From a virus, in the IMG/VR virus record IMGVR_UViG_3300035698_003578, positions 1-21,722 of that record: a stretch of DNA of 21,722 nt; one strand, 5' to 3'. Below the pieces are notes generated by a model that had not been told where the DNA came from, did no database searches, and worked only from the letters and a program-made list of their open reading frames with translations. Shown piece after piece: positions 6,259 to 18,362 of the stretch; position 1 is the stretch's first letter; each line of letters begins with the position of its first letter. The translations under genes were made by a program, and so were the position numbers.

Positions 6259-6476
6259 CTTTCTCCTCCTTTTAATTCTTCGCTCTGTTCTAATACCGTC
6301 GTTGGATAGATATTTACCACGGTTATCTTCGCCCCTGCCGCTTGAGCTGCACCGGCTAAGCCATCTGTTATCGGTTTATCTTGTGTCTCCCGTCGCTCCT
6401 TAATACACTCCGGGCATCCTTTCTCTAGTTGAAATACTCCATGTTTACATTTGCCAGTTAAGTTATAAGTTGCCAA
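6249..6476 (-). CDS. Small zinc-finger-like protein with TTG start
   Basis: The product has 75 residues. CKHGVFQLEKGCPEC (residues about 10-24) has the CxH-CxxC spacing of a small zinc knuckle. The rest is low complexity and then strand-like (ITVVNIYPTTVLEQ). The start is TTG at 6474-6476, supported by GGGGGTG six bases upstream; no ATG in frame would preserve the zinc site. The end of the gene encodes the SD of the next one. The function is unknown. Confidence 0.6.
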   Translation of the reverse strand: MATYNLTGKCKHGVFQLEKGCPECIKERRETQDKPITDGLAGAAQAAGAKITVVNIYPTTVLEQSEELKGGERWK

Positions 6477-8572: not shown

Positions 8573-9094
8573 TCAATTTCCTCTTAGGGATATAACTTCT
8601 GCTTCTAGTGCTTCAATGCGTTTTTCTAACTGTTTAATGTATCCCTTCATTACGGTATCAGGGAGATGAGCCTTAAGAGTTGGCAATAATTCTAGGTTTT
8701 CAATTCGGTTATCATCCCTTATTCCATTTATATGATGAACCACCTCCCAAGATAACAAACAGCGATTAAGGTATTTTGCCATCACAAGGCGATGTTCTCT
8801 TACATATCTATCCTTGCTAGCCATCAGATAAAAGAAATCGCTTGGATATAACCTTATCATCCAATAGCCGTGTCGCTTAAATCTACCCCCCTTCCATATG
8901 GGAGCTTTTTCCCTCAAATGGGCTTGTCCTTGCTTTATACAAGCACATTTACGACAGAGAATATATTTAGGCTTACCTTGCCGAATTTGAACCCATCGCT
9001 CCTTACCGCAATTAAGGCAAGCTTGCCATATCCATTTGGCGGTATCGTGGTATCCAAGCTCTTTACCTTGCCTAACATCACCTATCTTCACCAT
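8573..9094 (-). CDS. Free-standing HNH homing endonuclease (HNH3)
   Basis: From the ATG at 9094 the product has 173 residues. Zinc pairs lie at C26/C29 and C47/C50. The HNH core is EHRLVMAKYLNRC (100-112), VVHHINGIRDDN (118-129) and IENLELL (131-137). The C-terminus (about 151-170) is a short coiled coil. It shares the core with HNH1 almost residue for residue, so the two are paralogues. The ATG seven codons further upstream lies inside the promoter spacer and would not be transcribed. The start chosen is six bases after the TATAAT, and there is no SD, so the message is probably leaderless. It interrupts the lysis-type gene pair 9205-9444 and 8319-8552. Confidence 0.88.
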   Translation of the reverse strand: MVKIGDVRQGKELGYHDTAKWIWQACLNCGKERWVQIRQGKPKYILCRKCACIKQGQAHLREKAPIWKGGRFKRHGYWMIRLYPSDFFYLMASKDRYVREHRLVMAKYLNRCLLSWEVVHHINGIRDDNRIENLELLPTLKAHLPDTVMKGYIKQLEKRIEALEAEVISLRGN

Positions 9095-9100
9095 ACATAT

Positions 9101-9129
9101 ATTATAACAAAACATTAGTAGTTAGTCAA
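9101..9129 (-). promoter_or_regulatory. Promoter of HNH3
   Basis: TTGACT (9124-9129), a 17-base spacer and a perfect TATAAT (9101-9106) preceded by TGT are seen on the minus strand. Transcription should begin at the ATG (9094). The sequence resembles the LAGLIDADG gene promoter at 10860-10888. Confidence 0.75.
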
Positions 9130-11895: not shown

Positions 11896-13198
11896 GTAAA
11901 ATTATCAATACCTGGTCATCTCCCAGGCTTAAACGGCCAACCATGCGGTCAGCCTGGCTAGCAAGCTCGGCAAAGAATTTACTCCAGCTTCCCATTGATG
12001 GGCCTTCGATGGCAGTAATATCATACTGCCACTCGCCGCGGTCATTCCTGATTGTAACGGTATCAATAAGCATTTCCGTGCCGCTTAGGTTGTAACGGCT
12101 ATTGGTGACCGTTAATAATTGGCCGGGAAGGAAACCGGCATCACGCAATGTCATCTTAAAGCGCCTGCCCTCTATTGTATATTCGGCCAGTAGAGCATCG
12201 CCTGAGTCAAAGGCAACTTCCTGGTCTGTAATGTCCGGTCTGTCAACTACATTATCATAAAAGCCAGTGCCGCCTTCTACTGCCGACCTGACGTCTATAG
12301 CGTCCTCGTCTGTGACCAGGACTATGATATCAAACTCGCCATAATAGGTGATGACAACAGCTAAGGCGTTTCCAGGGGCCACGGCCGCGGTAACCACGGC
12401 ATCGCCCTTATTCCAGTAGAAGTCCTTAGCAGTATCAATGCCTTTAATACCTACCGTTTTTCCGACGGCATTAACTGTAATAGTCGGCACTTTAGCTATG
12501 GGGTAGCCCACATTAAATGATTTAACGCTGCCGTCGCCGGTGTGCGTCTCTGTCTGCTCGGAAGTCAGGCCACGGCCACCACGCAAATATTGTCTATTCC
12601 TGTATTTAGGGCTGCTAGTCTTTAGGCCCGATGTCTTCTGTAGTATCTCGGTGTCATCATCAATAGCACTAGGGGCCGCTGTAGTGGTCCTAACCTGGAA
12701 GTCAAGAGACTTATCAACATTGATTTGCCATATAAAACCAGCTTCCTTTGCCAAGCTATTTAGCACGGAAGTTAAAGAAACGTAATTAAAGACGGCCTCA
12801 AGAATGGTCGGGCCAGTTTGGATTGTTCCCTCTGTGATGCTGTCATCTGCCAGGTATTTAGTGATTAAGTCCTTAACAATAAAAGCTACCGTTTTATCTT
12901 CGTAAGACTCGGCAACTATCCTCTTATCGGCCAGTTTGTGCCAGTCAACACATCGGACTTTATGTAATAGCCCGCCCGCAGGGGCCTTGTATATCTCTTC
13001 GGTGTCTTCTATCATGCCGCCAAATACATTAGTGGCGTCGGCATCGGTTATGACAACTGTCTCACCCCTGACGTAATGAGCGCTGCCGTCTTCATCATTA
13101 ACAATAAAAGAGGCTATACTACGCTCTTCTATTCTAGTTTCTATAGTTAAAGAACCTTTTATGGGTATTACTTTAACCGTTGATATCTTGGTGGTCAT
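11786..13198 (-). CDS. Tail tip / baseplate hub-like protein
   Basis: This 470-residue protein follows the tape measure, with a stop/start overlap. Its order of features (N-terminal beta-rich domain, then KVRCVDWHKLADKRIVAESYEDKTV, later EYTIEGRRFKMTLRDAGFLPGQLL at about 340-363) is what I recall from gp27/gpD-like hub and tail-associated proteins that close the tail tube. The charged linker around residues 200-260 contains a GDGS-type insertion. The last 36 codons overlap the antisense end of the LAGLIDADG gene. The end may be original or may have been shortened by that insertion. The hub identity comes from position plus fold-like pattern. Confidence 0.55.
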   Translation of the reverse strand: MTTKISTVKVIPIKGSLTIETRIEERSIASFIVNDEDGSAHYVRGETVVITDADATNVFGGMIEDTEEIYKAPAGGLLHKVRCVDWHKLADKRIVAESYEDKTVAFIVKDLITKYLADDSITEGTIQTGPTILEAVFNYVSLTSVLNSLAKEAGFIWQINVDKSLDFQVRTTTAAPSAIDDDTEILQKTSGLKTSSPKYRNRQYLRGGRGLTSEQTETHTGDGSVKSFNVGYPIAKVPTITVNAVGKTVGIKGIDTAKDFYWNKGDAVVTAAVAPGNALAVVITYYGEFDIIVLVTDEDAIDVRSAVEGGTGFYDNVVDRPDITDQEVAFDSGDALLAEYTIEGRRFKMTLRDAGFLPGQLLTVTNSRYNLSGTEMLIDTVTIRNDRGEWQYDITAIEGPSMGSWSKFFAELASQADRMVGRLSLGDDQVLIILLNKAETWGWDESIAYTVHACPVPSATLYPSESLLPC

Positions 13199-14727
13199 AT
13201 TTGCAAGCCAGTCCTCAATCTTAATTCATCGACTAGCGGAGCGCCTATGATTCGGGCAAACGTTACACCGTCTATGTTTAAGGAAATATTGGCTGTTTTA
13301 TAACCACCGCCTCCGCCTAATCCTAAGTCAGCAAGGACACGCTTGTTAAGGGGAATAACGGCTTCCTTTTCGCTGGGAGCTAATTCACCTACTCTTAGCA
13401 TAGTGGGCTTTTTAATTATTGCACCGTATTGCGCAGTCGGGAAATCGGATTCAGATTGGGCTATCTCGGCCTCTGTCATCTCGTGATAGCCTTCAGCTTC
13501 AGACCATGCAAGCTGTGTTGGCTCCCCACCGGCACGCCTACCAGGTGATATGCCGAGAAAGCGCTGAACACTCAGCCATAATTTCTCAAGCCACTCCCAC
13601 ATCTGCATTACCCTGTCAAGCGCGCTTTTAATAGCATTACTGACGGCTGAAAACGCACTACTAGCAGCATTAGCAATATTATCAAAGATGGTTCCAATCT
13701 TATTCCATGCGCCCTCAAAGGCTAGTTCTACACTTTTCATGTTAGCAACTAAGAAAACGATAATCGCTATTAAAGCCACAACTGCCGCGATTATCAACCC
13801 TATGGGATTAGCCATCATGGCTATATTCCATAACCATTGAGCTCCGGCAACCAATTTTATGCCAGCTATTAATTGTGGTAATATGATAAGCATAGGTCCT
13901 AGTAAGGCCATAAGAGCACCAAAGCCGCCAACTATTACCATTAGAGCTTGAGTTAGGCCAGGGTGGGCATCCATCCATTCCCTAACGCCCGAAACTATCT
14001 CAGTAATATCATCGGCTAAGTCGGTGAGGGTAGGGATTAAAGCATCAGCGATGATATATTTTACACCTTCAAAGGACTTGCCCAGCCTATCCATATTGTC
14101 ATTAAATAAGGCCGCTTTGTCTGCGGCTTCCTGGTCGAAAACAATACCTAGTTCGTGGGCCTCTTGTCTTTGGGCTGCCATTGCTTCTGTGCCAGCGTCA
14201 AGAATGGGTAATAAATCAGTTCCCGACTTTCCGAAAATATCTTTAGCTAAGGCTGCCCTTTTTAACGGGTCTTCCACAGCTGCTACTGCTTGCGTTAGAA
14301 CCTCAAAGACTTCTTCAGGGCTTAAACCCTCAAGGTCTTCAACCTTAATATTTAATTTTTCAAAGGCAATCACCGTGGTGCTAAGCCCATCCTTCAGATC
14401 TTCTAAAGTTGAACCCATACGCTCGATAGCCTTCTCCACAACACCAAGTGTAGTCCCCCCAAGTTCAGCCATATGCCGCCATTCAGACAGGGACTCAGTA
14501 GAAAAGCCGGTGCGTAGAGCCATCTTCTGGACTTCATCACCCATCTTAGCATAGGCCTTGACACTCTTAACACCAACGGCAATTATAGCGCCACCCATAG
14601 CAGTCATGCCCAAACCTATAGCCTTGTTGTGCTTCATTATGTTATTTTTAAGGCCGGTCATGCCATTGTTTAGGTTGGTTGTATCTACACCTAACTTTAG
14701 AAGTGCATCACCTATTGAAATGCTAAT
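13195..14727 (-). CDS. Tape measure protein, probable ATT start
   Basis: The product is about 510 residues from ATT at 14725-14727 (488 from the first ATG at 14661). It contains coiled, Ala-rich helices (AVGVKSVKAYAKMGDEVQKM) and a hydrophobic block around residues 260-335 (ALMVIVGGFGALMALL, LIIAAVVALIAIIVFL). Near the C-terminus GEPTQLAWSEAEGYHEM and EKEAVIPLNKRVL are typical of tape measures. The 22 residues before the ATG (ISISIGDALLKLGVDTTNLN...) match the usual N-terminus of tape measures, and GGGGGG lies four bases before the ATT. No ATG, GTG, TTG or CTG exists between there and the upstream stop. At this length the tail would be fairly short, about 75 nm by the usual rule. Confidence 0.8.
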   Translation of the reverse strand: MSISIGDALLKLGVDTTNLNNGMTGLKNNIMKHNKAIGLGMTAMGGAIIAVGVKSVKAYAKMGDEVQKMALRTGFSTESLSEWRHMAELGGTTLGVVEKAIERMGSTLEDLKDGLSTTVIAFEKLNIKVEDLEGLSPEEVFEVLTQAVAAVEDPLKRAALAKDIFGKSGTDLLPILDAGTEAMAAQRQEAHELGIVFDQEAADKAALFNDNMDRLGKSFEGVKYIIADALIPTLTDLADDITEIVSGVREWMDAHPGLTQALMVIVGGFGALMALLGPMLIILPQLIAGIKLVAGAQWLWNIAMMANPIGLIIAAVVALIAIIVFLVANMKSVELAFEGAWNKIGTIFDNIANAASSAFSAVSNAIKSALDRVMQMWEWLEKLWLSVQRFLGISPGRRAGGEPTQLAWSEAEGYHEMTEAEIAQSESDFPTAQYGAIIKKPTMLRVGELAPSEKEAVIPLNKRVLADLGLGGGGGYKTANISLNIDGVTFARIIGAPLVDELRLRTGLQI

Positions 14728-14736
14728 ATTACCCCC

Positions 14737-14937
14737 CTAGTTGGCTTTCTTCTTCACCTTAATTAGATTTCCACCCTTAGAAAAGAGCATTTTATCTGAT
14801 ACCTTTGGAGTATGCGGCTTATTGTAAGCCTCAACTTCCCGGTTCTTACGGTCAACGGCCTTGGCTAACATGAGGTCTAGCAACTCTTCAGTCCAGTTAT
14901 TAACTATATCGTCTGGTGTAACGTGCCACTCTGCCAT
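14737..14937 (-). CDS. Tail assembly chaperone, T part of GT fusion
   Basis: The independent ORF from ATG 14937 has 66 residues (MAEWHVTPDDIVNNWTEEL, ending KVKKKAN). There is no SD in front of this ATG. The same frame is open upstream without stop to the slippery site at 14967-14973, so it is best read as the C-terminal extension reached by a -1 frameshift from the gene 14958-15356. The fusion would be about 206 residues: 130 from G and 76 from T. In lambda-like phages the GT protein binds the tape measure during tail assembly, and the tape measure follows immediately here. Confidence 0.8.
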   Translation of the reverse strand: MAEWHVTPDDIVNNWTEELLDLMLAKAVDRKNREVEAYNKPHTPKVSDKMLFSKGGNLIKVKKKAN

Positions 14938-14957
14938 AGCGAATTCGAAAACTAACG

Positions 14958-15356
14958 CTATTGAGCCCCCTTTGTTATGTGCTCTAGTGTTGCAGGGGCC
15001 ATCGTCGCTAAAGGGAAGGCTATTTCTAGCACCGCCTTAAATGCTGTGGCCATTTCGTCATCTGTAGCCTCATTCTCAATAACGTCACGGTCTAAATCTT
15101 TGGCGTACATAAAGAATAGGTCAATAGCTTGGTCGGGGGAAGTAACCAACATAGTAGTTAATATTTGCCCAAACTCTTCAGCATCCTCAATTTTTGCGCT
15201 AGCCAATTTTGGCAGAGGAGCTATTAACTTGATAGCTTCCTTCCTCCACTCTCTTGAATCTCGAATGACTAGGGGGCGGATAGAATATGTCTTGCCCCCT
15301 AGAATAACATCAATCCCCGCTTGAACTATTTTATCTTCTTCAGTTCGCTCCTTCAT
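14958..15356 (-). CDS. Tail assembly chaperone, G part
   Basis: The 132-residue product begins MKERTEEDKIVQAGIDVILG. KTYSIRPLVIRDSREWRKEA (about 23-42) followed by an all-helical acidic C-terminal half (EFGQILTTMLVTSPDQAIDL) is the pattern of tail chaperone G analogues. It lies between the tail tube and tape measure genes, the fixed place of this gene in siphoviruses. SD AAGGAG stands before the ATG. Its last codons contain the frameshift site. Confidence 0.8.
   Translation of the reverse strand: MKERTEEDKIVQAGIDVILGGKTYSIRPLVIRDSREWRKEAIKLIAPLPKLASAKIEDAEEFGQILTTMLVTSPDQAIDLFFMYAKDLDRDVIENEATDDEMATAFKAVLEIAFPLATMAPATLEHITKGAQ
14967..14973 (-). promoter_or_regulatory. Programmed -1 frameshift site A_AAG_GGG
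   Basis: Near the end of the G gene the zero frame reads ACA AAG GGG GCT CAA TAG. AAAGGGG has the XXXYYYZ form in the correct phase. A shift of -1 gives GGC TCA ATA GCG and continues through GSIALVFEFA into the MAEWHV frame without a stop. Placement 7 bases before the G stop codon is as in other phage tail chaperones. Confidence 0.8.
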
Positions 15357-18012: not shown

Positions 18013-18362
18013 CAGTCTTCCTCCGCCGTTATAGCGCTGCCGGAAGTGTAGTCCGGCTCGGACCACTCGAAGACAGGAGATGAAGCTGCCTTTTCTCTTA
18101 GGAATGTGGCTAGTTTAAGCATCTTATCTACTATCTTCTGAGCATAAGAGTAATCCCCTATCTTTTCGCTATCGGCGCTGGTAGCGTACTTAGATGCCCA
18201 TGCGTCAAGAACATCAGCCGCAGCCAGGTTAATATTGCTTGAGTTTTCAGTCAAGAAATAGTTAATTTCCTCATCAGAAAAGACATTATCTGTAATGTCG
18301 GTATCGCCTGTTATCAAGCGAACCTTGCCCACATTATTTGTAATATCATAAGTAACTGTCAT
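18012..18362 (-). CDS. gp6-like head-tail connector protein
   Basis: The 116-residue product starts MTVTYDITNNVGKVRLITGD. TDNVFSDEEINYFLTENSSN (about 24-43) and the following helices (AAADVLDAWASKYATSADSE) fit the gp6/gp15-like connector fold that forms the ring under the portal. Its ATG overlaps the stop of the 499-residue gene, whose last codons carry the SD GGAGG. The C-terminus is acidic. Context (connector before closure protein) agrees. Confidence 0.72.
   Translation of the reverse strand: MTVTYDITNNVGKVRLITGDTDITDNVFSDEEINYFLTENSSNINLAAADVLDAWASKYATSADSEKIGDYSYAQKIVDKMLKLATFLREKAASSPVFEWSEPDYTSGSAITAEED

Follow-up and report, generated by a model that had tools for sequence, protein, structure and literature searches.

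A tape measure gene predicted to start at AUU in an uncultured phage, and its possible origin by insertion of an HNH endonuclease gene at the original start

The window analysed here, a fragment of 21,722 nucleotides of an uncultured phage from IMG/VR (IMGVR_UViG_3300035698_003578), carries on its minus strand a gene of 510 codons, from ATT to stop (13195 to 14727), which encodes the tape measure protein (TMP). Comparison with relatives makes it very likely that translation of this gene is initiated at AUU (ATT, 14727-14725), where fMet is the predicted first residue, and the same comparison leaves this ATT as the sole plausible start of TMP in the window. No ordinary start codon explains the conserved N-terminus, a Shine-Dalgarno (SD) sequence stands at a workable distance and the same type of start recurs in relatives. 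The AUU reading had already been put forward in a preliminary description of this DNA and is supported by our results, but the likely origin of such starts, insertion of an HNH endonuclease gene at the original start, was absent from it.

The identity of the TMP is given by matches to 38 PHROG families, mostly tape measure proteins (best match phrog_8462, E 2e-58), by the alignment of its N-terminus with relatives and by the gene order, as it is placed directly after the G/GT tail assembly chaperone pair and the major tail protein. The match to the Pfam family PhageMin_Tail was under the Pfam cut-off. The chaperone G part is found at 14958 to 15356 on the minus strand, and 65 of its 66 homologues start with ATG or GTG. 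The ORF at 14737-14937, described previously as the upstream chaperone, does belong to the chaperone; it resembles, however, the T portion of a G/GT frameshift pair, since the frame stays open upstream as far as and beyond CCCTTTA (15015-15009, minus strand), a candidate -1 slippery heptamer for the G/GT fusion. The T part, in the -1 frame, would thus extend over 14737 to 15009 and end with the TAG at 14739-14737, a layout that is present in 48 of 61 relatives. In most of these 48 a heptamer of the CCCTTTA type is conserved in the overlap of the G and T frames, between positions -250 and -304 relative to the TMP start. A second candidate slippery site, AAAGGGG, is also present in the window.

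The minus strand reads AAA GCC AAC TAG GGG GGT AAT ATT AGC ATT TCA ATA GGT GAT GCA CTT CTA AAG TTA GGT GTA GAT ACA at the junction of the two genes. The TMP frame is open from the TAG of the chaperone to the stop at 13195, and between this TAG and the ATT there are only GGG, GGT and AAT. The SD GGGGGG (14737-14732) overlaps the last base of the TAG and is separated from the ATT by the four bases TAAT, with a predicted anti-SD duplex of -10.8 kcal/mol. The positions of these elements had been reported correctly, as had the absence of ATG, GTG, TTG and CTG from the 22 codons (14662 to 14727, minus strand; ISISIGDALLKLGVDTTNLNNG) that precede the first in-frame ATG at 14661. The same GGGGGG style had also been claimed for the gene at 6476, which is in fact preceded by GGGGGTG. 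Moreover GGGGGG is not enriched in the window (6 observed against 11.5 expected by chance), so the case for ATT rests on the relatives.

Relatives (designated by L numbers) were fetched by means of the head protease, the major tail protein, the TMP alignment and DNA patterns. Sixty-one distinct homologous TMP starts were obtained, 50 with ATG, GTG or TTG, ten with ATT (the window included) and one with ATC; a twelfth allele with an isoleucine codon as start, the ATC of L095, was found later, giving ten ATT and two ATC in all. The start codons of the 61 are placed at the position of the window ATT or at most one to two codons away. The alignment that had been recommended as a check therefore shows relatives beginning at the ATT position, mostly with ATG or GTG, and none at ATG 14661. 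A nucleotide search of known phages with the window gave no match, nor did the N-terminal 60 residues against named phages, which leaves the distant named phages L004-L006 as the only usable named relatives; their starts are no more than about two codons away from the ATT position. For S-CBS1 (L007) the alignment begins only at residue 19, and the extrapolated start is about four codons upstream. The sole cellular relative obtained in a search for prophage hosts was one contig of a Dehalococcoidales MAG, with a GTG start, and a family search around this MAG recovered that MAG alone.

The 22 codons were proposed to encode a typical tape-measure N-terminus, and this is borne out by their conservation as protein: residues I3, G6, D7, A8, L10, G13 and D15 are invariant in 15 diverse relatives. 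Among 11 alleles with isoleucine-codon starts pN/pS was 0.29 over codons 2-22 and fell to 0.04 over codons 2-8, and in the latter stretch pS was 0.77 (saturated) and pN 0.03. This pattern indicates that codons 2-8 of these 11 alleles are under very strong purifying selection, and the near absence of amino-acid change alongside saturated synonymous change implies that the stretch is translated from codon 2. In some of the isoleucine-start alleles an in-frame alternative exists upstream, namely a GTG four codons up in L063 and L174, an ATG twelve codons up in L095, a TTG eleven codons up in L155 and a CTG in L059 and L085, so that there the isoleucine codon is not the sole option. No alternative of this kind is available upstream in the window, L013, L061, L170, L172 and L183.

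The isoleucine-codon starts are scattered on a TMP tree that was built without the first two residues (110 columns, with many forks open). The best tree has 11 changes, at least seven of which are forced by well supported branches, and a single clade of these starts is rejected (AU test, p=3e-5). Given this scatter, the alleles were probably gained repeatedly or exchanged between phages.

The alleles share several features around the start. Their SD pairing is stronger, with a median of -11.4 kcal/mol in 11 isoleucine-codon starts against -8.5 in the 50 ATG/GTG/TTG starts (p=7e-6), and an A follows at +4 in 10 of 11 against 8 of 50 (p=5e-6), although the sequences have common ancestry and the p-values given here and below therefore overstate their independence. 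All ten ATT alleles read ATT AGY ATH TCN, and this held in a search that put no constraint on codon 2. A TCN serine codon at position 4 was present in all 11 isoleucine-start alleles compared with 12 of 31 others (p=3e-4); this excess is real, and a shared module or the avoidance of a second ATTAG are candidate causes.

The lack of an ordinary start codon is a peculiarity of the tape measure gene. None was found nearby in 11 of 61 TMP homologues, and for ten other genes of the window this was true of 4 of 374 homologues (p=2e-7); the four exceptions look like misplaced alignments. The head protease and ORF 17686 were left out of these counts because the start taken for each query is not the true start of a gene. 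An unbiased ATTNNN scan returned, at gene starts of the TMP family, the known ATT alleles only. Many matches to the ATT/SD patterns were unrelated and due to chance. A general scan for SD-preceded ATT or ATC starts without a nearby ordinary start gave nearly exclusively TMP genes and one other candidate. The latter is at L146:6018 on the plus strand, where a gene has GAGGAGG in front of a possible ATC start (IANELQHIPTAAG...) and lacks an ordinary start over 36 codons.

A clue to the origin of these starts is given by five relatives (L063, L174, L155, L095 and L113) in which a gene some 240 codons long (incomplete in L155) is placed on the opposite strand between the chaperone and TMP. Their TMP genes start with ATT in L063, L174 and L155, with ATC in L095 and with TTG in L113. 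The inserted gene matches HNH_3 (PF13392) above the curated cut-off in L063, L174 and L113 (E 4e-11 to 8e-12 and 1.3e-10), and L155 and L095 have homologues of it, in partial or full copies; the fragment in L155 is without the HNH part and is 60% identical to the L063 protein. These HNH genes have their own SD and promoter-like sequences, of the TTGACA/TATAAT type in several. The left junctions keep the old TMP start (ATGGCGATTAG in L063, ATGGCAATTAA in L113 and ATGGCGATAAA in L174), which has the form ATGGCRATWA and matches the uninterrupted TMP start of relatives (ATGGCRATTAGTAT...). To the right of the insert there is a new SD and a new start codon. The site is uninterrupted in close relatives and the flanks of the insert are identifiable. 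An isoleucine-codon start was found in four of five alleles with the HNH gene and in eight of 57 without it (p=0.004).

Three alleles without the HNH gene look like scars of such an insertion. In L061 the old ATGGCAATTAA is located 23 nt upstream and is followed by GGGAGGTGCAAC ATT, as at the right edge of L063, and in L183 the old ATGTCAATTAA is 25 nt upstream of the ATT; in both, the old start is out of frame to the new ATT, and the phase differs between the two. L172 reads CGCCAAATATTA GGAGGTGTAA, which matches the right edge of L095. In L059 the stretch between the chaperone and an ATT-start TMP (about 18034-18263) contains a small cargo unit, with a promoter-like TTGACA/TATACT and a 35-codon zinc-ribbon-like ORF, and also a 10-bp hairpin with a T-rich tail, followed by AAGGAGG and ATT.

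We suggest that the ATT alleles as a group probably arose via insertion of the HNH gene at the original start; the reverse order, insertion of the HNH gene into a pre-existing ATT allele, is the alternative. A homing-type HNH gene would have inserted at ATGGCRATTA, where the end of the chaperone and the start of TMP overlap, separating the old ATG from its gene, and the right edge of the element would have supplied a new SD together with ATT (or ATC/TTG). The window would then be a later form without the endonuclease. We are inclined, with slightly better than even confidence, to the broader proposal that the HNH gene is a selfish element which repeatedly invades the first codons of TMP, that the SD of its edge, the AUU or AUC and the recoded ISIS in place of MAIS keep the gene alive, and that the resulting starts are scars or resistance alleles. 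The AUU allele was perhaps kept after loss of the endonuclease since the altered start region resists cleavage.

For the window itself we consider it an even chance that the ATT derives from an HNH insertion whose endonuclease has since been lost. Neither an HNH gene nor a recognisable edge of one is found at 14727-14740, and an alignment for a remnant was not significant (z 0.9), so a scar status is something that we infer for this sequence. At 14737 to 14747 on the minus strand AAGCCAACTAG might be a decayed form of the old TMP start ATGGCAATTAG, to judge from its position in comparison with L061 and L113, which read ...CATGGCAATTAA at the end of the chaperone. Elsewhere the window encodes a distantly related HNH-type protein of its own (8573-9115, minus strand); over 119 residues it shares about 34% identity with the HNH protein that relatives carry at the start of TMP.

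As to the initiation event, ribosomes that end the chaperone, or that newly arrive, would bind GGGGGG and start at AUU with the initiator tRNA (fMet). Initiation at AUU would be less efficient, and the strong SD would compensate. Initiation factor IF3 discriminates against AUU, hence a reduced TMP output is expected; since few copies of the tape measure protein are needed per tail, we speculate that a low output may be harmless or useful. By analogy with infC and pcnB, a link between the TMP start and IF3 is plausible. In the Dehalococcoidales MAG (L189), the infC frame has no ATG, GTG or TTG at the expected start and a strong GAGGAGGT just upstream, and to judge from this the gene of IF3 itself might begin at a non-standard codon in that MAG.

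Other explanations of the start region have to be weighed against AUU initiation. As ATG 14661 (14661-14659, residue 23) is the first ordinary start, gene finders limited to ATG, GTG and TTG would choose it and leave the 22 codons upstream untranslated; this is highly improbable, given that these codons are strongly conserved as protein, that no relative starts there, that the Met is a Leu in L063 and L061 and that, as was noted before, the ATG has no SD. Hardly more probable is a read-through or frameshift fusion of TMP with the T part of the chaperone. The TAG of the window is indeed in the TMP frame, as previously pointed out, with no other stop before the ATT, but the chaperone ends in another frame in L013 and L183, the opposite-strand gene lies between the two genes in L063, L174 and L155, no single frameshift fits the old ATG, whose distance upstream is 23 nt for L061 and 25 nt for L183, and the relatives with ATG have an independent TMP start. 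Read-through of the TAG, which had been judged the less likely route, is thus not a general one. An ATG turned into ATT by faulty sequencing or assembly is a negligible prospect: the window is one metagenomic contig, but its second codon is AGY and not GCN, and the ten ATT alleles recur across many metagenomes. The alleles of L013 and L063 were each recovered in two of these, and together with the presence of ATT and ATC in divergent phages this excludes an assembly error.

A more serious competitor accepts AUU initiation and attributes it to point mutation and to selection for a low level of TMP, with no endonuclease involved. The few TMP copies that suffice per tail speak for it, and ATG AGT in L069 and L104 is one base from ATT AGT. 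In addition, AUU and AUA starts behind strong, extended SDs in Staphylococcus aureus reach about 10% of the output from AUG (PMC13009471). We regard this explanation as unlikely, though far from negligible, as the ATT AGY ATH TCN shared by all ten ATT alleles exceeds what a change of start would need, the isoleucine-codon starts are associated with the HNH gene, and relics of the old start persist upstream in L061 and L183.

AUU and AUC would thus serve as start codons in about a fifth of the sampled alleles of TMP, a conserved structural gene, in one phage group, and annotation restricted to ATG, GTG and TTG starts will cut up to 40 residues from all of these genes. The HNH gene lying on the old start suggests how a gene may come to change its start codon and, if the proposal is true, non-standard start codons can be scars or resistance alleles of homing. 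To our knowledge AUU starts are documented in only a handful of bacterial genes, and in the literature that we searched, with partial coverage, we found neither an AUU start in a phage structural gene nor an invaded gene repaired through a new non-standard start.

The known AUU-initiated bacterial genes include infC and pcnB of Escherichia coli. The cvfC1 gene of S. aureus also starts at AUU (PMC13009471). The TMP alleles resemble these three genes in having AUU behind a strong SD, in the maintenance of a non-standard start among relatives and in the lower, perhaps regulated, expression that is expected. However, infC, pcnB and cvfC1 are host genes backed by start-site or reporter data, whereas TMP is a phage structural gene whose start is supported by comparison, and its isoleucine-codon starts are dispersed among ATG-using relatives. 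T4-like phages have free-standing HNH (mob) homing endonuclease genes between other genes (PMC2988022). Like these, the TMP insert is a stand-alone HNH gene between conserved genes, with its own SD and promoter-like sequences, here on the opposite strand, and such genes can disturb or split their neighbours; the insert, whose homing is putative, differs in that it would displace the start codon of its neighbour and its edge would provide a non-standard start. In phage ICP1 the tape measure gene is interrupted by HNH-3 endonucleases and restored by intron splicing (PMC10448857). In both cases a tape measure gene is the target of an HNH_3 endonuclease gene, but the phages described here have the insert at the 5' end of TMP, and the gene would be restored by a new start codon instead of by splicing.
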